A stretch of 57,637 nucleotides of DNA from Pseudomonadales bacterium. GTDB taxonomy: Bacteria > Pseudomonadota > Gammaproteobacteria > Pseudomonadales > Azotimanducaceae. The position numbers were made by a program, and so were the translations under genes. Numbering within the stretch: position 1 is the first letter of the stretch; the number at the start of each line of letters is the position of its first letter. Positions 43,589 through 57,139 of this stretch are shown in pieces. The stretch spans positions 1-57,637 of the forward strand of contig JAJECH010000039.1 in the NCBI GenBank assembly GCA_022822135.1, read 5' to 3'. A model generated the notes under the pieces. It ran no database searches. It was not told where the DNA came from and was given only the letters and a program-made list of their open reading frames with translations.

Positions 43589-46486
43589 TCATTGAACTGA
43601 TCGTTTCCTCAGATCGACTTCCTTTGATTGAAAAAGCGAAGTCAATCGCGCATCCACGTCGCGTTCAAACGCAACTGAAACTTCGAGATACCAGATATTC
43701 TCTGACTGAAATCGCAATGGTCTGATCTTTCGCCAGTCTTTTTCTGTGACCACAATTACGTCATCAACGTGATGTTGGATATCCGATTCTCGGAATAACG
43801 AATGGTCAGGTAATTCATGGGCGATCGGGGCAAAGCCGAGCTGGCGCAAGGTATTCTCGAAACGACGCGGATTGCCAATCGCCGAGTAAGTGTGAATGAC
43901 GCTGTCGAAACGCTCGCTAAAACCCTCGACACTCAAACTCTCTTGTGAATAGATATTCACGAAGCGAGTAGGAACAACGTGCATAACGTCGTCCACCATA
44001 CCGATTGCTTGCGAATTCACTCCATTCGAGACGACCCAATCAACTTCACCGAGACGTCTGCGAGGTTCACGCAACGGTCCAGCAGGTAAAAGCATGCCAT
44101 TACCTAATCCACGAGCACCATCGACCACGGCGATCTCAAAATGCCGTCCCATCGCATAGTGCTGCAATCCGTCGTCACTCAGTACGAAATCAACATCGTG
44201 ATTTTCAAGCAGATACTTCACGCCACGCACCCGATCCGGATCAACGACCATTGCGCACTTAGCGCGCTCAGCAATCAGCGGTGCTTCATCGCCCACTTGA
44301 AGGATGTCGGAATCTGGTTGTACAAGTGCAGGAAATCTTCCTTTCCCCTTGTAGCCTCGACTTACGACGCCGACGCGTTTTCCCGCACTCTGTAACCAAT
44401 TCGCTAACCAGATCACCAAAGGCGTTTTACCCGTACCGCCCACCGAGATATTGCCTACGATTAACAGCGGAACGGGCGGGACCCATGCGTGTGCGCTGAG
44501 GCGCCGCCGCCGGTTTCGTGCCAATCTGCCATACGTCCAGGATAACGGCGCAAACGAGCGGACCCAACGTTTCTCGCCGTACCAAGCGTCAAGAAGCGTA
44601 CCTGTCGCTCCTACGGGCTCCGCTGCGACATCTCTGAACCGCGGAGCCGGGGTAGCTTCCACACGCGTTGATTCGGTTTCTCCGTCTACGGTTTCGAATA
44701 GCTTGGCATAACGACCGTGCTGTTCGAGTAAAGCTCTATGCGTACCCTCTTCAACGATTCGGCCATCATCAACGACCAAGATATGGTCCGCGTGAACGAT
44801 CGTCGACAGTCGATGCGCTACGATGATTGTGGTTCGACCTTTCATCGCCTCATTTAGCGCAGATTGAACTAGCGCTTCCGACTCGGTATCGAGCGCGGAC
44901 GTCGCCTCGTCTAGGATCAGAATCGGCGCGTCTTTCAGCAGCGCACGAGCGATTGCAATTCTCTGGCGCTGACCGCGTGAAAGCGTCGTGCCTCGATCTC
45001 CTACCGCCGTGTTCAGCCCATGAGGTAAGGAGTCAACGAACCTCTTAACACGAGCTCGCTCCAATGCGGAATCGATCTGCGCTTCCGAAATCGAATCCAG
45101 TTCGCCGTAAGCGATATTTGCGTGGAGCGTGTCATTGAATAGAAAAATATCTTGACTTACCAAAGCCAAGTGCTTGCGAAGATTTCGCTTGGTTAACTCG
45201 TGCGTCGGCACACCATCGATAAGAATTTCACCGTGTTGAGGCTGGTAGAACCCCATTAATAGTTCTACGAGCGTTGACTTTCCACTACCGGACGCGCCGA
45301 CAATCGCCAAAGTTTGACCCGCTTCCACGCGAAACGAAATCTCTGATAGAACGTCTGATTCCCCGCGTTCGTAACCAAACGAAACGTTACGAAACTCGAC
45401 CTCTCCTGCTACCTCCTCACGTTCCGCTTTCCCCGAGTCCGCCTCCTCCGGTTGATCAATCTGAGCAAAGATCTCATCTGCAGCTGCAAGACCGGACTGT
45501 ATACGGGCATTTAGGTCCGATAAACGCTTCACGGGTTGAACGAGCACTCCTGCGATGGCGATGTACGTCACCAAATTACCCGTCGACATACCAGCGCTCA
45601 CTTCTGGTAGGAACAAGAGTCCCATTAACACGCCAAGTACGATTCCAACGAACATTTGAATGGTCTGACTACTGATTGCTTTGGTCGCAACCATGCGAAT
45701 GTTTTGCCGTCGATTCGCCAAACTCGCTCGGAAGAAGCGTTGACGTTCATGTTCCTGTGCGCCAAACGTGCGAATGAGTTTGTGCCCACCCACGGCTTCA
45801 TGACCGACTTGAGTGACTTCTCCCATCGAAGCCTGGATGCTCTCGCTGGTACTTCGAAATCGCTTCGACGCTACGCGCACGATGACCCAAACTACGGGCA
45901 ACGTGACTGCAAAGAGCAACGTGAGCCGACCGCTGAGACTGATCAACGTGACCACGAGCACAATCAACTTGAAACCGTCCTGCAAGAGAATCCTTAACAC
46001 TTCAGTTACCGTGTCACGAAGTTTTTGCGCAGTGTCAGTAAGCCGATTCGAGATTGATCCTTGAGAATTACGATCAAAGTAGCTAACCGGCAACACGAGC
46101 AAGCGATTAAAAAGGTCGCAACGAACTTGATGTATTAGGTTAAGCGAAACGTTCGCGAGCAAATACTCGCCCACAACTGCACCAAATGCTCGAACAAGCG
46201 CTGCGACCCCGATCAGAAGAGGGAAAATCAGCCAATACTCAAGTTCTAGTTTCAGTGCTAATACGGGAAGTGGTGTGAGCCAATCCCCACCACCAACGAT
46301 GCTCCCTTTCGAAGTACCTGGCTCAAAAACGTCAACGATCACACCAAGTGTTTGTGCGAATACGACCTCGGAATATGCGGCAAGAATGTAACCGACGATG
46401 GCCGCAACGAAATACCACTCCCTTCCACGGAGATATCGCAGTAGACGTCGATAGGTCGCGAAATCTCGTTTTGATGGTTCAGTCAT
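43589..46486 (-). CDS. msbA-lpxK: MsbA lipid A flippase fused to LpxK tetraacyldisaccharide 4'-kinase
   Basis: One uninterrupted 965-residue frame. Residues 1-340 hold six membrane segments of an ABC exporter; 360-595 the ATPase with Walker A GASGSGKS (397-404), signature LSRGQ (503-507) and Walker B ILILDE (522-527). After a Pro/Ala/Glu-rich linker (about 600-628) a full LpxK follows: LLDAWYG, Walker A GNISVGGTGKTP (678-689), SRGYKGKG, and SDDGLQH (770-776). In E. coli the two are neighbouring separate genes; LpxK adds the 4'-phosphate to lipid A on the cytoplasmic face and MsbA flips the product. Fusion would place synthesis next to export. Overlaps exbD by 8 bases. Confidence 0.93.
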   Translation of the reverse strand: MTEPSKRDFATYRRLLRYLRGREWYFVAAIVGYILAAYSEVVFAQTLGVIVDVFEPGTSKGSIVGGGDWLTPLPVLALKLELEYWLIFPLLIGVAALVRAFGAVVGEYLLANVSLNLIHQVRCDLFNRLLVLPVSYFDRNSQGSISNRLTDTAQKLRDTVTEVLRILLQDGFKLIVLVVTLISLSGRLTLLFAVTLPVVWVIVRVASKRFRSTSESIQASMGEVTQVGHEAVGGHKLIRTFGAQEHERQRFFRASLANRRQNIRMVATKAISSQTIQMFVGIVLGVLMGLLFLPEVSAGMSTGNLVTYIAIAGVLVQPVKRLSDLNARIQSGLAAADEIFAQIDQPEEADSGKAEREEVAGEVEFRNVSFGYERGESDVLSEISFRVEAGQTLAIVGASGSGKSTLVELLMGFYQPQHGEILIDGVPTHELTKRNLRKHLALVSQDIFLFNDTLHANIAYGELDSISEAQIDSALERARVKRFVDSLPHGLNTAVGDRGTTLSRGQRQRIAIARALLKDAPILILDEATSALDTESEALVQSALNEAMKGRTTIIVAHRLSTIVHADHILVVDDGRIVEEGTHRALLEQHGRYAKLFETVDGETESTRVEATPAPRFRDVAAEPVGATGTLLDAWYGEKRWVRSFAPLSWTYGRLARNRRRRLSAHAWVPPVPLLIVGNISVGGTGKTPLVIWLANWLQSAGKRVGVVSRGYKGKGRFPALVQPDSDILQVGDEAPLIAERAKCAMVVDPDRVRGVKYLLENHDVDFVLSDDGLQHYAMGRHFEIAVVDGARGLGNGMLLPAGPLREPRRRLGEVDWVVSNGVNSQAIGMVDDVMHVVPTRFVNIYSQESLSVEGFSERFDSVIHTYSAIGNPRRFENTLRQLGFAPIAHELPDHSLFRESDIQHHVDDVIVVTEKDWRKIRPLRFQSENIWYLEVSVAFERDVDARLTSLFQSKEVDLRKRSVQ

Positions 46487-48362: not shown

Positions 48363-49640
48363 TTAAAGATTCAAGAACCACAGCGAGAACGACGGTACAT
48401 AGGTTACCAGTAAAAGCACGAGTATGAGTACGACCATGAACGGGAAGCATGCGCGATATAGGTCAAGCACCGGACGCTCGAATCGATAGCTTGCAATAAA
48501 CAGATTCATGCCGATTGGTGGCGTGAAATACCCGATCTGCAAGTTGGCGATAAATATGACCCCCAAGTGGAGAGGATGAATGCCGTACTGTACAGCGATG
48601 GGCAGAATAAGCGGCACCATGATGACCGTCGCCGAAAACACGTCGAGAAACGCGCCTAAGACCAAGAGTAGAAGATTGAGCAAGATTAGAAATACAATCG
48701 GATTGCTAACTCGTTCGTGGATAAATTCGAATAGTTGTTGCGGAATCTGAGCGTCTACAAAGTAACCCGTGAGAGCGAGCGCTGCGCCCAGAATCAAGAT
48801 GATGCTACCGACCATCACCATCGATTCGCGAATGACACTCGGTAGTTGCCGAAGCGTTACCTCCCGATAGAGAAACACCTCAACAATCAGCACATACATT
48901 GCGGTGATTGCCGCTGCTTCTGAGATCGCGAAATAACCAGAATAAATCGCTCCTAGTATGACGAACGGGAGTGGAATCTCGAATCTCGCGTCCCATAGAG
49001 CTGTTTTTACAGCACGTATTGAGAATGGGCTACGCTCAATCCCGCGCTGACTCCAGATCGTGTAAGCGGCAAGCGCAAGCAACATCAACATCACGGGAAT
49101 CATGCCGGCGAGGAACAGTTGTGGAATCGTGAATGAGACGCCGACATCGATCTGCTGCGCGATGACACCGTACAGAATGAGCGGAACTGATGGAACGATT
49201 AAAACTCCCAGACTACCGGAGGTCGTCACCATACCGAGACTGAATCGCTCGCTATAGCCAGCCTTTAATAGCATGGGGAACAACAATGCACCGATAGCGA
49301 CGATCGTGACACCGGACGCACCCGTAAGTGCGGTGAATACTGCGCATGCAACAAATCCTACGATGGCGAGACCCGCGGGCATCCACCCAAATAACGCTTG
49401 AGTTAGCGCCATCAATCGCTGCGCAGAGTTGCTTTCGGTCATTAAATAACCGGCAAAAGTAAATAACGGAAGCGAGACCAGCAAAGGCGTATCAGCAATT
49501 CGATAGACCTCGAGAGCAACGACTGACAGATCAACACCCGAAGCTATAAATCCAAGCATCGCACCAGCCAAGACCACCGCGAATAACGGCATGCCGATGA
49601 GTGCTAGCGCCAGTAGCAGCGCAATTGCGAGCCAGGTCAT
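48363..49640 (-). CDS. dctM: TRAP transporter large permease, DctM type
   Basis: A 425-residue protein of about twelve membrane segments with DctM landmarks: GMPLFAVVLAGAMLGFI, LPLFTFAGYLMTESN, TGASGVTIVAIGALLFPMLLKAGYSERFSLGMVTTSGSLGVLIVPSVPLILYG and the final PPIGMNLFIAS. It moves substrate with a Na+ gradient. Its start overlaps the DctQ stop by four bases. Confidence 0.94.
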   Translation of the reverse strand: MTWLAIALLLALALIGMPLFAVVLAGAMLGFIASGVDLSVVALEVYRIADTPLLVSLPLFTFAGYLMTESNSAQRLMALTQALFGWMPAGLAIVGFVACAVFTALTGASGVTIVAIGALLFPMLLKAGYSERFSLGMVTTSGSLGVLIVPSVPLILYGVIAQQIDVGVSFTIPQLFLAGMIPVMLMLLALAAYTIWSQRGIERSPFSIRAVKTALWDARFEIPLPFVILGAIYSGYFAISEAAAITAMYVLIVEVFLYREVTLRQLPSVIRESMVMVGSIILILGAALALTGYFVDAQIPQQLFEFIHERVSNPIVFLILLNLLLLVLGAFLDVFSATVIMVPLILPIAVQYGIHPLHLGVIFIANLQIGYFTPPIGMNLFIASYRFERPVLDLYRACFPFMVVLILVLLLVTYVPSFSLWFLNL

Positions 49641-50110
49641 GTGGCGGGTTTAGTAAACGCCTGTAACGTGAATCGAAGCGTCATCAGGAAGGCTGAACCC
49701 GGGATGACTGTTTCGAATATCCAAGCGGGTGCTTGACCAACCCCCGGGGTGCCGTCAACATAGTCCCATCCGACCATATCTAGCGAGAAATAGCCAAACA
49801 CCGCACAGATGACAGCTGTCGTCAAGCACGAGATCACCCATGCGAGTCGCCGGACCGTGTTCGAAAACAATCGGTCAATCAAGTCAATTCGGATGTGTTT
49901 GCTATCACCAATTGCGACGACAGCACCTACCATCGTGACCCAAAGTACCGCCATTCGAACTAGGTCGTCCCCCCAGTAGAAGCCCAGTCCGAACTCACGT
50001 GCAATCACTTGCATTGCCGCAACAAGCAACATGGTCAAGAACAGTGCGACCAGAAGGAAATTACCAGCCCACCGAAGTATGACTGCTAATCTATCGAGCA
50101 GTTGACTCAC
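49637..50110 (-). CDS. dctQ: TRAP transporter small permease, DctQ type
   Basis: A 157-residue four-segment protein with the DctQ core LVAAMQVIAREFGLGFYWGDDLVRMAVLWVTMVGAVVAIGDSKHIRIDLIDRLF. It joins DctM to form the membrane part of the transporter. It overlaps the binding-protein gene by 20 bases. Confidence 0.92.
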   Translation of the reverse strand: MSQLLDRLAVILRWAGNFLLVALFLTMLLVAAMQVIAREFGLGFYWGDDLVRMAVLWVTMVGAVVAIGDSKHIRIDLIDRLFSNTVRRLAWVISCLTTAVICAVFGYFSLDMVGWDYVDGTPGVGQAPAWIFETVIPGSAFLMTLRFTLQAFTKPAT

Positions 50111-51110
50111 GATAACTAGACACGGTTTTTTCTAGCAGTTCTACGTGTTCTCGTACGAGAATGTCGCTCTCGACCCACGCATTAGCCGCACGAGTAGCGG
50201 CAGCGCGCCATGCAGCCACCTCTTCGACAGATGGTTTTAACACGGTTAGTCCTTGCCTTTCCAACGCAGCTAGGGCTTGATCATGATCCGCGTAGTTTTG
50301 CTGTTCGACTCTCGCGAGGAAAGTTTGGAAGGTTTTACGCGTGAGTTCTTGATCGTCGGAGGCAAGACGCGAAAACTGGCGTGCATCCAGCATAAAAACG
50401 CTATAGATGTACATAAACGGTAGATCTAGTATGTAATCGAGTTGCGTATGCCACTGGAGGACGATGGCAGCAGTTGCTGGCACTGCAACCGTATCGATCA
50501 GTCCAGTCTGTAGTCCTGCGAGCACGTCAACGATTGACAGGGGAACGGGTACGATGCCAAACGCTTCGAGGAGTCGCACTGCCCCTGTGTCCCCTTTTGG
50601 CGCCCAGACTTTAAGTCGTCTTGCATCCTCGATCGAAGTTCCTGATTTGGAGCTCATCGCATTCGCAAAACCAACGCCAACGAAACCGAATGCCTCAAAA
50701 CCATGATCTGCGAGATCTTGAATCAGCAGTTGGTCCATCTCGCTTCGAACGTTTGTGACCTCCTGGAAATCGCGAAAGAACATCGGCAGGTTGTAAAGCT
50801 GAACCGCTGAGCTCACGGGTTCAAGGGCGCCCGTTTGAACGATGCCTCCCTGTAGCTGACGCGCTCGCATTTTGCGTAGAACAGCGCGATCGTCTCCCAT
50901 GACGCCACCTGGATAAACTCGAAACTTCACTCGACCTTCGGTTTGCGCCTCAATCAAACTAGTGGTGCGTCGTAGGTCTCGCATCCAAGCTGAGCCGTCC
51001 GGTGAAACCGTCGCTATCTTAAAAGTTGTTTCAGCAGTTGCAGCCTGACCAACTACCAGGTTTGACGCTGCGATCAAGAGAATCGCAACTAAACTCCTAG
51101 AAAAAATCAT
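50091..51110 (-). CDS. dctP: TRAP transporter substrate-binding protein, DctP type
   Basis: A 339-residue periplasmic protein with signal peptide (VAILLIAASNLVVGQAATA). Typical features are FKIATVSPDGSAWM at the start of the mature part, FRVYPGGVMGDDRAVLRKMRARQLQGGIVQTG, and LKVWAPKGDTGAVRLLEAFGIVPVPL with the conserved Arg-equivalent stretch. DctP proteins of TatT-containing systems bind ligands different from those of classical DctP; the ligand is unknown. It overlaps TatT by 14 bases. Confidence 0.93.
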   Translation of the reverse strand: MIFSRSLVAILLIAASNLVVGQAATAETTFKIATVSPDGSAWMRDLRRTTSLIEAQTEGRVKFRVYPGGVMGDDRAVLRKMRARQLQGGIVQTGALEPVSSAVQLYNLPMFFRDFQEVTNVRSEMDQLLIQDLADHGFEAFGFVGVGFANAMSSKSGTSIEDARRLKVWAPKGDTGAVRLLEAFGIVPVPLSIVDVLAGLQTGLIDTVAVPATAAIVLQWHTQLDYILDLPFMYIYSVFMLDARQFSRLASDDQELTRKTFQTFLARVEQQNYADHDQALAALERQGLTVLKPSVEEVAAWRAAATRAANAWVESDILVREHVELLEKTVSSYRESTAR

Positions 51111-51966
51111 CTGCAGAATCCTTCAGTTGCAGCGCAAGTTTTTGTGCAACGACATTTTGTAAGGTGAGATCGCCGGCGAGCGGATCCGTGGCGAGGACCT
51201 CTGAAACCAGACGATCGTGTAATTCGCGATCAAAGATTGCGCGCGCATACATTTCTGCCATCATTGCCTTAGCGTAGAGATTCGCACCCTCACTGATCTC
51301 GATCGCTCGTTCAAAGTTCTCTCGCCCTAATTCCGGTTCACCTCCTAGAGCGGCGGGTAGGAACGTAGCGAAAACGCCCATGTAAATGAACGGCGATCCA
51401 TTGGCATACGATGGATCCAACTGAATGACATGCTCCATCAAGTATTTAGCTTTCGGTAGTTCAGCAATCGCCAAGTAGTCGTCCGCGTGCGCTTGAATCC
51501 AGCCGGCCCAATTGCTCGCAAGAATGTACAGATAGTCGATATCTCCCATGGACGTAGCGTCCACAATCTCCTTGAAATCGATGAAGGATGCGTCTGTGAC
51601 GTTGCAAAACACCTCTCGATGCCGACAGCTGGCTCGCAACGCAAGTTGCTTGCCTTTTGTTGCAAAATACTTTCGTCTACTCTCTTCTTCAACAAATCCC
51701 GCTGCGTACGATCCATTAAGCATCGCAGCAGTGTTCAACATGGATGGGTCATTGGGATTTCCTTCAATCAAGGCATCCACGAGTATCAGGTATGCTGGCA
51801 GCCCTTCTTCTACGACGCCAAAATCGGAACTGCCAAGCACAGCAGACGACAGATCTTCCGCAATACTGTTCGTAAATCCCGAAATAATCGCGGAACAAGA
51901 GACTGTGAGCGACATGCCGATGGTTACGACTGCGATTCTGTAGAAAACTAGAAGCCGTGATTTCAT
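51097..51966 (-). CDS. TatT, TRAP-associated TPR lipoprotein
   Basis: About 289 residues from ATG 51966 (an upstream in-frame start at 51993 would precede the signal peptide). The lipobox LTVSC follows a hydrophobic stretch. The mature part is all helical with TPR-like repeats: GNPNDPSMLNTAAMLNGSYAAGFV, YLMEHVIQLDPSYANGSPFIYMGVFATFLPAALGG, RAIEISEGANLYAKAMMAEMYAR. In Treponema the homologue (Tp0956, TatT) forms a complex with the binding protein, possibly handing over hydrophobic ligands. It opens the TRAP operon. Confidence 0.9.
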   Translation of the reverse strand: MKSRLLVFYRIAVVTIGMSLTVSCSAIISGFTNSIAEDLSSAVLGSSDFGVVEEGLPAYLILVDALIEGNPNDPSMLNTAAMLNGSYAAGFVEEESRRKYFATKGKQLALRASCRHREVFCNVTDASFIDFKEIVDATSMGDIDYLYILASNWAGWIQAHADDYLAIAELPKAKYLMEHVIQLDPSYANGSPFIYMGVFATFLPAALGGEPELGRENFERAIEISEGANLYAKAMMAEMYARAIFDRELHDRLVSEVLATDPLAGDLTLQNVVAQKLALQLKDSADDFF

Positions 51967-52020
51967 GTACAAGATGGAAACAGACGTAATCAAGAGCTCA
52001 GTATGAGAAAACGTGGGTCG

Positions 52021-52647
52021 CTAAGTCGACTGAGACGCTTCTTGAACAGCAAGCACCAACGCATCTAAATCGGGTCGCTCCTTGTAGCCAGGCACCGCAC
52101 GCTTAAATTTGATCGTCGCATCCGGCAATACGAAAATGACGCCCGGATGTGGGATTCCATAGGCGGGATGACCCGCTTCGTATTCACTGTTGAGGATACC
52201 AAAACCCTTGACCGTGGTCGCATCTTGATCTGCAAGCATCGGGTATTTCAACCCTTGTTCTTCCGCGAAGGAGGAATTCTGTAGATATGCGTCATACGAA
52301 ATGGCTGCGAGGTTTACACCGAGAGATTGGAAGTCTTCAAAACGTTCGTTCAGCTGCACGAGCTGAGTCTTACAGTACGGTCACCAATTGGTGGAGCGCA
52401 CGAAGAATATGAGCAGCCCGTTCTCTCCCTTTAAGTCGTCGAAGTCCAGACTTTCGCCGTTAGTATCTTTAACCGATAGCGTCGGCAGCGAAGCACCGAT
52501 CGACGGCGCCCAGTCTTTTGTATATTCGGGATTCCAATCAAGCAATGACGTCAAATCCTCTACGTCCTGATTTCCGCAAGCAACCGTAAGCAAAGCTCCG
52601 CTTACGATCAACAGCATCCTAATAAAACTACTCAAATTTCTCCCCAC
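52021..52647 (-). CDS. redoxin (AhpC/TSA-like) lipoprotein, probable selenoprotein read through UGA
   Basis: Reading through the TGA at 52383-52381 gives one 208-residue redoxin. Part one (GTG 52647) has a lipoprotein signal (ALLTVAC24) and a thioredoxin-like start PSIGASLPTLSV..LLIFFVRSTNW. Part two continues in the same frame, P-Y-C-K-T-Q-L-V-Q-L, then LGVNLAAISYD and GIPHPGVIFVLPDA. The active site thus reads W-U89-P-Y-C92 where relatives, as I recall them, have W-C-P-Y-C. The SECIS-like hairpin at 52350-52366 supports selenocysteine insertion. Alternatives are a nonsense mutation or sequencing error. It lies 54 bases upstream of the TatT gene, on the same strand. Role: membrane-anchored periplasmic thiol/peroxide redox reactions (inference). 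Confidence 0.8.
52350..52366 (-). promoter_or_regulatory. SECIS-like hairpin after an in-frame UGA
   Basis: Counting from the base after UGA in the mRNA, UCAGCU (15-20) pairs perfectly with AGCUGA (26-31) around the loop CGUGC (21-25). Bacterial SECIS elements, as known from fdhF and surveys, lie within about 16-37 bases of the UGA and have a G in the first two loop positions; here the second loop base is G. A lower stem may continue imperfectly (G8-C37, U9-A36, G12-C33). It lies wholly inside the coding region, as expected in bacteria. Confidence 0.65.
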
Positions 52648-52840
52648 TTAGTTTTACGCGGTTCCGTGGCACTTAGGTGAAAAACCGAACAGAGCGTTGT
52701 AAAACAACAACGATTGTGACAAATTGCTTTCCAACAGACTATTATTGCCGTGGACCCAATCGGTCACGTATGAAGGTGAGCCTTTCAAGGCGGTCTAAAC
52801 CTTCAATTATTCCCTAACCCAAGCATAGATTATTCGTCAA

Positions 52841-53935
52841 ATGTCACGAAATTTCTGGGTCGCGCTCGTGATCCTGCTCATCGCGATCGCCTGGTTTTCA
52901 TATGACTTCCTTACACCGGAAGAAATCATTGCCTCAGACAAGACGCTCGCTGATATAAACGCCGAAAGCGAAGCGTTGGTCGCGGATCTACCTGCGACAA
53001 AGGTGCGAGCTAAAGTCAGTGTTGCACAGGAAAAACAACGAATCTCTAGCTTGAGCGGCCGAACGGAAAACAAACGTACGGTTATCGTGCGAGCGGAAGT
53101 CGGCGGCTTAGTGATTGACCGCGTAGTCGAGCTTGGTGAACGCGTGAAAGAAGGCGACCCGCTGTGCGTACTTGAACTCGATGAGCGTGAAGCGAGGGTT
53201 CGGGAAGCGGAAGACCTGCTTCGGGAGATGAAACTTGAATATGCAGGTCAAGCGTCGTTACGAGACAGCGGTTTACAGATTGAGCGACAAATCGCAGCAG
53301 CGAAGGCTCGTGTCACACAAGCCGAAGCAATGCTTTTACAACGTCAAAAGGAATTAGAACGATCAACCATCAAGGCGCCTTTCAACGGCTTTATCGAAGA
53401 ATCTCACGTTGAAGTAGGTGATCTGCTTCAACCTGGGACACCTTGTGTAACACTCATTGATCTCGATCCTATGAAGGTGATCGCGCAGGTTAGCGAGAAG
53501 GAAATACATCATTTCGCGATAGACACGATCGCGGAAGCTCGTCTACCGTCTGGTGAGACAGTTTCCGGTAACGTCACGTTCATAGGACAACAGTCGAACG
53601 CCAATACACGCACATTTATCGTCGAAATTCTCGTCGAGAATCCAGACTTCAATATACGCTCGGGTCTCACCGCCGAATTGTTGATTCCATTGGAACGGTA
53701 TCTCGCGCACAAGGTACCGATCGCACTCATTGGAATCAATGATGACGGGCAACTCGGTGTACAAACTGTGGGTGATGCCAGTCGCGTCGAATTTGTGCCG
53801 ATCGCCATCGTAGCAGAGGACGAAGACGGAGCGTGGGTCACGGGATTACCAGACATCACAACCCTAATCACCGTTGGGCAAGACTTTGTAGTGCCAAACG
53901 AAACAGTTGAGGTCGTCTTTGAGGACGAAATCTAA
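52841..53935 (+). CDS. RND efflux periplasmic adaptor (HlyD/MFP family)
   Basis: A 364-residue adaptor with an N-terminal membrane anchor (FWVALVILLIAIAWFSYDF). The lipoyl halves are RAEVGGLVIDRVVELGERVKEGDPLCVLE and STIKAPFNGFIEESHVEVGDLLQPGTPCVTLID, separated by a coiled-coil hairpin (about 115-165, REAEDLLREMKLEYA...QAEAMLLQRQKELE). It bridges the RND permease encoded 12 bases downstream to an outer-membrane channel, not encoded here. Confidence 0.93.
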   Translation: MSRNFWVALVILLIAIAWFSYDFLTPEEIIASDKTLADINAESEALVADLPATKVRAKVSVAQEKQRISSLSGRTENKRTVIVRAEVGGLVIDRVVELGERVKEGDPLCVLELDEREARVREAEDLLREMKLEYAGQASLRDSGLQIERQIAAAKARVTQAEAMLLQRQKELERSTIKAPFNGFIEESHVEVGDLLQPGTPCVTLIDLDPMKVIAQVSEKEIHHFAIDTIAEARLPSGETVSGNVTFIGQQSNANTRTFIVEILVENPDFNIRSGLTAELLIPLERYLAHKVPIALIGINDDGQLGVQTVGDASRVEFVPIAIVAEDEDGAWVTGLPDITTLITVGQDFVVPNETVEVVFEDEI

Positions 53936-53947
53936 GTCGGTTATCAG

Positions 53948-56900
53948 ATGAGAGACGCCTTAATCGATCGAACCTTAGGTCGAAAACGAACAACGATCCT
54001 TCTTATGCTCGTCGTGGTCCTATTCGGACTCATCGGACGAGTGTCCATTCCGATCGAATCAAGCCCGAGAATCGACGTACCGTTCTTTGTCATCACTGTG
54101 ATACATGAAGGGATATCGCCGGAAGACGCAATTCAGCTGCTTGTTTTACCACTTGAAACGGAACTGAGTTCGGTCGAAGGTGTAGAGGAAGTGCAGTCAT
54201 TCGGCAACGAAGGCGCCGCAACCGTATTTGTGGAGTTCGATGTCGAAGTTGATTTGGATAAAGCTCTGCTCGACGTACGCGAGGCTGTTGATCGCGCGAA
54301 GGTGAAGTTCCCTTCGACCGCGGAAGAGCCCATCGTAAGTGAGCAAACGACGGCAAGCTTTCCCGTCCTACAGGTCAACATCACGGGCAAAGATTCACCA
54401 GAAAGGATGCTCTACCTACTGGCGCAGGATCTGAAGAACCGTCTTGAGGCGATCCCGTCCGTTCTTGAAGCAGATATTCGAGGCAATCGAGAGGAGCTCC
54501 TTGAAGTCGTAATCGATCCCTCCGATCTTGCTGCCTACGCAATCACGATCGATCAATTGATGGTCACCCTGCAGCGCAATACGCGACTAATTCCGGCGGG
54601 TGCGCTCGATTCGGGAGACGGCCGAATCTCCATTAAAGTGCCAAGCGTTATTGAAGAGGCAAAAGATCTATGGGATTTACCCGTCAAGGTTGAAGGTGAC
54701 GTCGTAATAACGCTTAAGGACGTCGCGTCTGTGGCACGCACATTCAAAGATCGAGACAACTTCGCGCGTGTGAATGGCGCTCAAACGATGGCGGTTTACG
54801 TGTTCAATCGCGTCAACTCCAACGAGATTGACACAGCAAACGCTGTAAAAGCGGCTGTTGAGGAGTGGAAGGCTTCAACACCTAAGTACGTCGATGTCTT
54901 CTATAGTCAAGACCAATCACCCTATGCACTCCGACAAGTGCGAGAACTCGAAGGAAACGTCCTCACTGCGTTGGTCATCGTCATGGTGCTAGTGGTTGGA
55001 AGCATGGGTTTCCGAAGCGGAATCATTGTCGGTCTCGCGATTCCAGTTTCATTCCTATTCGCCATAGGGATCGTATGGGTCATGGGGTTGACGTTTAACT
55101 TCATGGTCTTGTTCGGCATGCTATTAGGTCTTGGCATGCTGATTGATGGTGCGATTGTGATCACCGAATACGCTGATCGGAAAATGATCGAAGGGCACAC
55201 ACGCAACGAGGCATACGCGTTGGCGGCAAAACGCATGTTCTGGCCAGTTACTGCTTCAGTCGCAACGACACTTGCTGCTTTTCTGCCATTGATGTTCTGG
55301 CCGGGTGTCTCCGGAAAGTTCATGAGTTACTTACCCATTACGGTATTCGCGGTGTTGAGCGGAAGTCTTCTGTACGCCCTCTGTTTTGGACCTGTGCTAG
55401 GTGCCATATTCGGCAAAGCTGGTTCTTTAACGGAAGCTGCGAAAGCACGTATAGCGGTCCTTGAATCTGGCGATCCCACGACACTGCGCTCGTTCACCGG
55501 TATATACGCACGTTTGGTAAAAGTATCAACACGCCACGCATGGTTGACTGTGTCACTCACAGTACTCGCGTTGATTGTTTCGTTCGTTGCATACAACACA
55601 AAACAGCTCGGGATGATCTTCTTCGAATCCGACCCTCAGTATGCGCAAGTACTGATCCATGCACGTGGGAACCTGACGATCAACCAGACCTCAGAGTTTG
55701 TCGGCGAAGTCGAAGACCGGTTGATGCACGTACCGGGAGTACAGGGAATCAACACCATCGCCTCCGTTGCTGCTGGCGGATTCTTTGGGTCGCAAGATGC
55801 GTCACAAGACGTTATATCGTCCATATTCGTCGAATTGACAGATCAAGCTGAACGCGAAATGTCGGGCGAGGACACGCTCGAGGAAATGCGCGACCGTGTG
55901 AAAGATCTTGTGGGCATCGTCGTGGAAGTTCGTCCACTTGAAGAAGGTCCCCCAGTCGGAAAACCCGTTCAGATCGAGTTTTCGTCGAACTACCGTGAAC
56001 TCATTCCACCTGTCGTTGCGGCGATTCGCGAGTATATCGAGACAGACGTGGACGGATTGCGTGACGTAGAAGACTCGCGACCCATCCCTGGGGTTCAATG
56101 GCGAATCGCCGTTGACCGAGCTCGCGCGGCAATATTCAATGCTGACGTAACGCTTGTTGGGATGGCAGTACAACTCGTCACTAATGGTATTTTTATGGGT
56201 GAATACCGACCAGATGACGTCGACGATGCCGTTGATATTCGGGTTCGTTTTCCCGAAGAAAGTCGAGGTCTCGACTCATTGGACGACATGCGAATTCCGA
56301 CGAGCCAAGGTTTGGTTCCGATGTCGAATTTCGTGAAACGCGAACCGATTAACAGTATCGAGAACATCACCCGACGTGATCGTAAGCACGTTTTCGAGAT
56401 TCTTGCCGATGTCGAACCTGGTGTACTAGCCGATGCGAAAGTACGAGAAATCGGCGCATGGCTCGATCAACAGCAATTTGATCCACGCGTCACGATTCGA
56501 TTCCGCGGAGCTAACGAAGAACAGCAGGAGTCCATCGCTTTCGTGATTCAGGCTTTCATTTTTGCGCTATGCCTGATGTTCGTGCTGCTGGTAACCCAAT
56601 TCAATAGCATTTATGAGAGCTTTCTGATTCTCTTCAGCGTTGTGATGTCAACTGCCGGTGTGTTGCTCGGTTTAGTCATCACGAATCGTCCATTCAGCGC
56701 AATCCTGACCGGGATTGGCATCGTTGCGCTTGCTGGAATCGTTGTGAATAACAACATCGTGCTCATAGATACGTACAACCAGTTGCGTCGAGACCACCCT
56801 GAACTGAACTACCTCGATCTGATCGTTCGTACTGGTGCCCAGAGATTCCGTCCTGTCTTGCTCACGACAGTAACCACGGTCATGGGTCTGATGCCTCTTG

Positions 56901-57139
56901 CAAGCAATATCTCAATGGACTTCGTCAACGGCGAGATCATCGTTGGTAGTTCTGTATCGAGTTTTTGGGTACCGCTTGCACAAGCGATCGTATTTGGATT
57001 GACCTTTGCCACGGTACTAACTCTTGTCTGCACTCCCGCGATGTTGGCATTCCCACATCAACTCAAGAACCTCGGGCACGCAATATCCGACCGTTGGCGT
57101 GCACAAAGAGCGCGAAACGCAGAGACTCTAACGTCATAA
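53948..57139 (+). CDS. RND efflux permease, HAE1 type
   Basis: A 1063-residue proton-driven efflux pump with two six-segment repeats. Landmarks are GLGMLIDGAIVITEYADRKMIEG in the proton-relay helix of the first half, TVTTVMGLMPL in the second, and a large periplasmic porter region beginning IPIESSPRIDVPFFVITVIHEGISPEDAIQLLVLPLE. The length fits HAE1 (AcrB-like, drugs or lipophiles) rather than heavy-metal CzcA. It forms a two-gene operon with the adaptor. The tail is short and basic. Confidence 0.95.
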   Translation: MRDALIDRTLGRKRTTILLMLVVVLFGLIGRVSIPIESSPRIDVPFFVITVIHEGISPEDAIQLLVLPLETELSSVEGVEEVQSFGNEGAATVFVEFDVEVDLDKALLDVREAVDRAKVKFPSTAEEPIVSEQTTASFPVLQVNITGKDSPERMLYLLAQDLKNRLEAIPSVLEADIRGNREELLEVVIDPSDLAAYAITIDQLMVTLQRNTRLIPAGALDSGDGRISIKVPSVIEEAKDLWDLPVKVEGDVVITLKDVASVARTFKDRDNFARVNGAQTMAVYVFNRVNSNEIDTANAVKAAVEEWKASTPKYVDVFYSQDQSPYALRQVRELEGNVLTALVIVMVLVVGSMGFRSGIIVGLAIPVSFLFAIGIVWVMGLTFNFMVLFGMLLGLGMLIDGAIVITEYADRKMIEGHTRNEAYALAAKRMFWPVTASVATTLAAFLPLMFWPGVSGKFMSYLPITVFAVLSGSLLYALCFGPVLGAIFGKAGSLTEAAKARIAVLESGDPTTLRSFTGIYARLVKVSTRHAWLTVSLTVLALIVSFVAYNTKQLGMIFFESDPQYAQVLIHARGNLTINQTSEFVGEVEDRLMHVPGVQGINTIASVAAGGFFGSQDASQDVISSIFVELTDQAEREMSGEDTLEEMRDRVKDLVGIVVEVRPLEEGPPVGKPVQIEFSSNYRELIPPVVAAIREYIETDVDGLRDVEDSRPIPGVQWRIAVDRARAAIFNADVTLVGMAVQLVTNGIFMGEYRPDDVDDAVDIRVRFPEESRGLDSLDDMRIPTSQGLVPMSNFVKREPINSIENITRRDRKHVFEILADVEPGVLADAKVREIGAWLDQQQFDPRVTIRFRGANEEQQESIAFVIQAFIFALCLMFVLLVTQFNSIYESFLILFSVVMSTAGVLLGLVITNRPFSAILTGIGIVALAGIVVNNNIVLIDTYNQLRRDHPELNYLDLIVRTGAQRFRPVLLTTVTTVMGLMPLASNISMDFVNGEIIVGSSVSSFWVPLAQAIVFGLTFATVLTLVCTPAMLAFPHQLKNLGHAISDRWRAQRARNAETLTS

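Follow-up and report, generated by a model that had tools for sequence, protein, structure and literature searches.

Gene content of the locus

The window that we analysed is a 57,637-nucleotide stretch of the genome of a Pseudomonadales bacterium (Azotimanducaceae). The original prediction joined two adjacent minus-strand reading frames of this stretch into one gene, and the profile matches bear this out: a single in-frame TGA lies between W88 and P90, the frame is open from there to the TAG at 52021, and both PF00578 (87.3 bits; cut-off, 26) and PF08534 (58.4 bits) span the TGA (Table 1). The read-through protein would be about 204–208 residues in length, with the active-site motif W88-U89-P90-Y91-C92. 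The UGA is followed by 119 codons; the earlier count of 112 corresponds to the open reading frame that begins at the first GTG past the TGA. Of the 13 matches to PF00578 in this genome, the redoxin is the only one with an internal stop. An Rfam scan of positions 51900–52800 returned a single chance match to a miRNA.

Table 1 Predicted features of the redoxin–TRAP locus
Feature	Position	Strand	Basis
Redoxin gene, putatively Sec-containing (AhpC-TSA/Redoxin fold)	52021..52635	-	PF00578, PF08534; stop TAG 52021
Predicted signal peptide ending in lipobox LTVA-C	52576..52635	-	Pattern match; Cys codon 52578-52576
UGA codon, putatively read as selenocysteine (U89)	52381..52383	-	TGA in 30/30 loci
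C92, second Cys of W-U-P-Y-C, presumed resolving residue	52372..52374	-	Cys in 30/30 Sec loci
Candidate SECIS-type hairpin, 6-bp stem and 5-nt loop	52350..52366	-	15-31 nt after UGA
TatT, TRAP T-component, second operon gene	51097..51993	-	PF16811, 199 bits (cut-off 26.5)
DctP, TRAP substrate-binding protein	50091..51110	-	PF03480, 116 bits
DctQ, TRAP small membrane subunit	49637..50110	-	PF04290, 84.5 bits
DctM, TRAP large membrane subunit	48363..49640	-	PF06808, 266 bits

The more likely start is the TTG at 52635 rather than the GTG at 52647, because GGGGAGA (52645-52639) sits immediately 5' of the TTG and shares sequence with the GTG. The window's redoxin is probably secreted and lipid-anchored, given its predicted signal peptide and lipobox. 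As a general trait the anchor did not survive comparison. Among 30 loci (the window and 29 relatives, from a search of 97 genomes comprising the window's own and 96 relatives), pattern matching placed a lipobox in seven, namely the window and its nearest relatives (L020-L024 and L043); an eighth locus flagged by the script, L045, was dropped because the match lies upstream of the likely start. Most of the 23 loci that lack a lipobox resemble, by eye, ordinary secreted proteins. The predicted lipid anchor is thus a trait of a subclade.

The TRAP transporter operon named as a neighbour in the original prediction lies directly downstream, with profile matches for all four genes. The redoxin stop and the TatT start are separated by 27 nt, and the TatT, DctP, DctQ and DctM reading frames overlap by 4–20 bases. 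On the other side, divergent genes for HlyD-type and AcrB-type RND efflux proteins (52841-57139, plus strand) share the upstream region of the redoxin gene; both also occur in 5 of 19 relative loci compared. Farther along the minus strand, a single open reading frame (43589-46486) fuses an MsbA-like ABC exporter to LpxK. Reading frames that cluster with it were present in 9 of the 19 loci, and in six of these they are at least 954 residues long.

Conservation of the UGA codon

In all 30 loci the same codon is TGA, preceded by a Trp codon and followed three codons later by Cys. More broadly, 56 of the 58 matches listed at E <= 1e-25 in the 97 genomes contain a TGA (rows counted by hand). The remaining two are in G032, where the match contains TAG and TAA, and in G012, where an additional copy has no stop and neither Cys nor Sec at the site. 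A strong TGA copy was found in 48 of the 61 searched genomes of the window's family (hand count) and in one genome, G063, of another family of the order.

Compared with the four nearest relatives, dN/dS was 0.072–0.106 over 48 codons upstream of the UGA and 0–0.073 over 112 codons downstream; these values are approximate because synonymous sites are near saturation, and a value of 0 denotes a dS too large to estimate. The similarly low ratios on both sides indicate that amino-acid constraint continues beyond the UGA. A UGA restricted to this genome and accompanied by decay, which would have spoken against the original prediction, is therefore not what the relatives display.

Several genomes carry further copies. 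Two neighbouring Sec redoxin genes, each with its own TGA, occur on G002:C82, G005:C57, G008:C27, G009:C36, G011:C27 and G013:C10, and another locus (L210, G010:C117:53500-57000) has three related copies in a row, of which one keeps W-U-P-Y-C and two have lost it. A second TGA-bearing redoxin-like gene was found in L207 (G032:C38) and L215 (G038:C63), with matches in G047, G048, G054 and G059. It lies in frames of 388–453 residues, has the motif W-U-P-P-C-W in L207 and L215, and probably encodes another, larger selenoprotein.

A covarying hairpin downstream of the UGA

A SECIS-like hairpin at the right distance after the UGA was part of the original prediction, and comparison among relatives upholds it. 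In a gap-free alignment of the 30 loci, standard pairs fill 99.0% of 210 pair cells, and 54 cells carry a change in both bases. Covariation scored 0.616, compared with 0.200 +- 0.027 in shuffles (0 of 500 as good) and at most 0.133 for slid versions of the hairpin; two of the five shuffle measures failed to separate the hairpin from shuffles (465/500 for pairs changed in both bases and 410/500 for additional pair types). RNAalifold recovered the six stem pairs unaided. The loop has a conserved G (52359) followed by U in 28 of 30 loci and by G in the others. The bases that flank this G-U also covary (C-G in 12, A-U in 10, G-C in 5, G-U in 2 and other in 1), and because both are third codon positions, this cannot be put down to the protein sequence.

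All seven pairs form in 28 of 30 Sec genes compared with 2 of 80 Cys homologues, with the caveat that the 30 sequences are related and that the stem is partly constrained by a conserved Q-L-V-[QE]-L that is absent from many Cys forms. The geometry fits the published bSECIS model (loop of 3–9 nt, stem of 4–16 bp, a G within the first two loop positions, 16–37 nt from the UGA): the window's hairpin has a loop of 5 nt with G as its second base, a stem of 6 bp and 20 nt from UGA to loop. Its 36-nt minimum free energy, -7.0 kcal/mol, narrowly misses the published threshold of -7.5; 14 of the 30 Sec and 14 of the 80 Cys sequences reach that threshold, and the two sets average -8.67 and -4.27, respectively. 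The hairpin is part of the minimum free energy structure in 27 of 30 Sec but 5 of 80 Cys sequences. A 76-nt single-sequence fold of the window was no better than shuffles (z, 0.86; 163/200 as good), and the case for the hairpin accordingly comes from the comparison of relatives.

Selenocysteine machinery

The window's genome (3.75 Mb in 63 contigs, 97.6% complete) encodes the four components that the original prediction had named for a search, all above curated cut-offs. These are tRNA-Sec (selC; 71.1 bits, with the same call by ARAGORN), SelB (411.6 bits), SelA (544.8 bits), which adjoins SelB, and SelD (256.7 bits). The SelD match lies within a 739-residue open frame (L049, G000:C26:161753-162655) and is therefore probably a fusion; Ndh–SelD fusions are on record (PMC2398784).

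Across the 97 genomes, SelB was found at E <= 1e-80 in 58. It was present in 47 of the 49 genomes with a strong TGA copy and in 11 of the 48 others (hand count; Fisher p 1.4e-14, a test that ignores kinship). The two strong-TGA genomes in which the search found no selB are G034 (550 contigs, 91% complete) and G044 (85% complete). The search at the same threshold also found no selB in G032, where one redoxin copy (L206, G032:C49) has decayed, with TGG at the Sec site and two internal stops. Such decay is as expected once the ability to insert Sec is lost. The selB gene may simply be absent from this assembly, however, because G032 keeps a different, intact TGA-bearing redoxin-like gene.

Cysteine homologues and origin

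The original prediction asked which residue homologues carry at position 89: the codon is TGA in all 30 loci, and distant homologues have Cys. A scan of named genomes yielded 159 encoding stretches, and the 80 best of them make up the Cys-form set; the search pattern demanded Cys, and so it is the existence and breadth of these homologues that count, not the figure of 80 out of 80. Gammaproteobacteria (Colwellia among them), alphaproteobacteria (among others Hyphomonadaceae) and acidobacteria are represented in the best 80 of the 159. A quick tree of 110 rows, for which the site was masked, places the 30 Sec rows together on one side of a branch (SH-aLRT, 96), adjoining two Cys rows. This supports a single origin of Sec within the sample only, because the Sec rows were drawn from relatives of the window.

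Wider samples, searched at E <= 1e-20, yielded no Sec form other than the window's. Of four matches in a class sample of 369 genomes, three have no internal stop; the ten in a phylum sample of 398 genomes comprise the window's own with TGA, two with an internal TAA (site codon, TGC) and seven without a stop. In a plasmid collection, only distant redoxin matches were found (108 records, all with less than 60% identity), and TatT had no match. Among the plasmid records listed for the 16S sequence, the best matches are gammaproteobacterial and reach 84.5% at most.

Fold and relationship to known families

The predicted model (pLDDT, 86.9) has its closest folds in Bcp/PrxQ and AhpE, with ResA lower, and the sequence profile matches agree, in that the Bcp/PrxQ type is best and ResA chains also match. 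In the profile alignment, C92 falls on a Cys of the Bcp-type chains that we take to be the peroxidatic residue, and Sec stands where those chains have other residues. Peroxiredoxins have Thr or Ser three residues before the Cys of the peroxidatic motif. P168, within I-P-H-P-G, is invariant and may be the counterpart of the thioredoxin cis-Pro, which it resembles.

Excerpts of earlier work describe a Prx-like family in which a thioredoxin-like UXXC replaces TXXU (PMC1088965), and the alignment pattern of our redoxin matches that description. Prx-like UxxC selenoproteins with pfam00578 have been listed at least since 2005 (PMC2398784, PMC1088965, PMC9312934, PMC13188914), including 225 Sec and 2,740 Cys sequences of 'Prx-like 1' in the GOS survey (PMC2398784). 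With PF00578 over its cut-off and U89-P-Y-C92 in place, the redoxin fits this published class by domain, motif and description, and the word 'new' in the original prediction has to be given up where it refers to a kind of selenoprotein.

The window's clade shares PF00578, U-x-x-C, a predicted redox role, Cys homologues and a bacterial SECIS with the published class. It differs in its motif (mostly W-U-P-[YF]-C), its putative signal peptides and, in some members, predicted lipid anchors, its TatT–TRAP operon and the separate position of its Sec rows in the tree. We found no mention of these distinguishing features in the consulted portions of the published Prx-like selenoprotein descriptions, and a literature text search for the strings WUPFC and WUPYC listed only matches that were off topic by title.

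Two better-known types are also close. ResA/TlpA-type proteins share a thioredoxin fold with a W-C-x-x-C site, and the redoxin matches ResA chains in sequence; ResA is exported. The redoxin differs from them in that Sec replaces Cys, and the NCBIfam ResA model, NF002854, scores 48.1 bits, far below its cut-off of 170. PrxQ/Bcp proteins provide the nearest fold and best profile matches, but the redoxin has a thioredoxin-like UxxC, and the model for thioredoxin-dependent thiol peroxidase, PRK09437 / NF006960, reaches 47.5 bits, below the cut-off of 140. No family in the NCBIfam profile search scored above its own cut-off; NF040769, for SelL-related redox proteins, gave 42 bits (cut-off, 120).

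The TatT–TRAP operon among relatives

In 22 of the 30 Sec loci, TatT follows the redoxin gene on the same strand. It is within 185 nt in 15 of these and approximately 0.7–0.85 kb away in the other seven, with an opposite-strand reading frame between in both of the two that were mapped; the available DNA of the remaining eight loci (130–1482 nt) shows no TatT. Around the 80 Cys-form loci, tblastn (E 1e-5) found no homologue of TatT, DctP, DctQ or DctM in flanks of up to 6 kb per side, often less. 

For the window's TatT, chain 8g52_A gave a match at E 1.6e-14 and Tp0956 a weak one at E 0.015. Its Cys pair, C123/C130, is strictly conserved in the 13 sequences compared (13/13). Of 30 TatT proteins that represent other families of the class and were drawn from 87 genomes with a match, however, 20 have the pair too, and it is thus no specific evidence for TatT as a substrate, which weakens its candidacy as a specific redox target. 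No close redoxin relative was found within about 1.5 kb of these other-family loci; L173 alone had a weak match, with 21% identity. A DctP alignment of 14 sequences has no column with two or more Cys.

Known systems of this kind (TPATs) include the Treponema TatT/TatPT/TatQM proteins and the methanotroph BstC (PMC5812351, PMC10942540), and share the TatT, DctP, DctQ and DctM genes with the window. According to excerpts of these studies, the TPAT pore protein has a hydrophobic channel, with uptake of hydrophobic molecules suggested (PMC5812351), and BstC, a T-component, has been crystallised, with models of it containing sterols (PMC10942540). The first gene of the window's operon encodes a putative selenoprotein redoxin, whereas the same excerpts mention none for known TPATs. 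The searched literature, in the parts consulted, did not contain a conserved operon of a Sec redoxin with TatT-DctP-DctQ-DctM, and titles and abstract openings gave no link between a selenoprotein or selenocysteine and a TRAP transporter.

Function and alternative explanations

The selenoprotein is very probably real because the TGA is common to all 30 loci, dN/dS is low on both of its sides, the hairpin covaries, the Sec machinery is present and the G032 copy has decayed. The central claim of the original prediction, that Sec replaces the N-terminal Cys of a thioredoxin-type site, is thus borne out. We regard it as almost certain that the TGA encodes Sec, and assign a probability of roughly 0.94 to the full reading, in which a secreted Sec-containing redoxin is translated by SECIS/SelB recoding. 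As judged from the genomes, SelB would bind the hairpin that closely follows the UGA and deliver Sec-tRNA to this codon, and translation would run on to the TAG at 52021. Fold and motif suggest selenol–disulfide exchange, in which U89 would attack an oxidized substrate and C92 would resolve the mixed selenosulfide; we lean towards such thiol–disulfide chemistry.

What the redoxin acts on is a matter for more cautious proposals. Among specific roles, we consider redox maintenance of this periplasmic uptake system the most likely, because the redoxin heads a TPAT operon and the studied relatives are tied to hydrophobic ligands. Speculatively, it would reduce a disulfide of some partner protein, for example TatT, or else oxidized cargo or peroxide beside the transporter. 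We offer a functional tie to the TPAT system only tentatively. The narrower proposal, a Sec redoxin dedicated to lipid-type uptake that acts on TatT (Cys123/Cys130) or on oxidized hydrophobic TPAT cargo, appears rather unlikely, and a role for selenium in transport of this kind was not found in the searched literature.

A redoxin with a general periplasmic job, merely co-transcribed with the TRAP genes, has close to an even chance of being correct. It would account for the eight loci without TatT in the available DNA, for the seven in which TatT is set apart and for Cys-form homologues with no TatT or TRAP homologue found nearby, but not readily for TatT within 185 nt in half of the loci, across several genera of the family. 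Less probable, and in our view doubtful, is that the same selenoprotein is a peroxidase, with C92 or U89 reducing H2O2 or lipid hydroperoxides, as in PrxQ/Bcp, rather than protein disulfides. The nearest solved folds are peroxiredoxins (Bcp/PrxQ/AhpE), C92 aligns with the presumed peroxidatic Cys of Bcp-type chains and TPAT relatives are linked to lipid-like ligands in the excerpts consulted. However, the motif is a thioredoxin-like U-x-x-C with Trp ahead, Sec occupies the position three before C92 at which peroxiredoxins have Thr or Ser (UXXC versus TXXU in the excerpt of PMC1088965) and the invariant P168 resembles a thioredoxin cis-Pro.

That the UGA is a true stop, in a gene that is broken or yields two peptides, has nothing in its favour beyond the standard-code reading and is extremely improbable in view of the shared codon, the constraint beyond it, the covarying hairpin and the Sec machinery. 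Equally improbable is a UGA read as Trp or another residue through suppression or an altered code: a W-W-P-Y-C protein could result, but no evidence favours this, TGA terminates three of ten window genes checked (DctQ, an ExbB-like gene and the MsbA–LpxK-type reading frame), distant Cys-site homologues are common (in a search that demanded Cys) and the single Trp-bearing copy observed contains two additional stops.

With recoding of the UGA as Sec, a gene that the standard code reads as two fragments becomes a well-supported selenoprotein. The analysis also yields a SECIS alignment that shows synonymous covariation, together with a set of Cys forms for comparison. The clade to which the redoxin belongs appears from its sequences to be lineage-specific and secreted, with a conserved TPAT operon context that we did not find in the consulted portions of the searched literature. 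It points to a testable connection of selenium with TRAP transport of the TatT type, the physiological cargo of which is poorly known.
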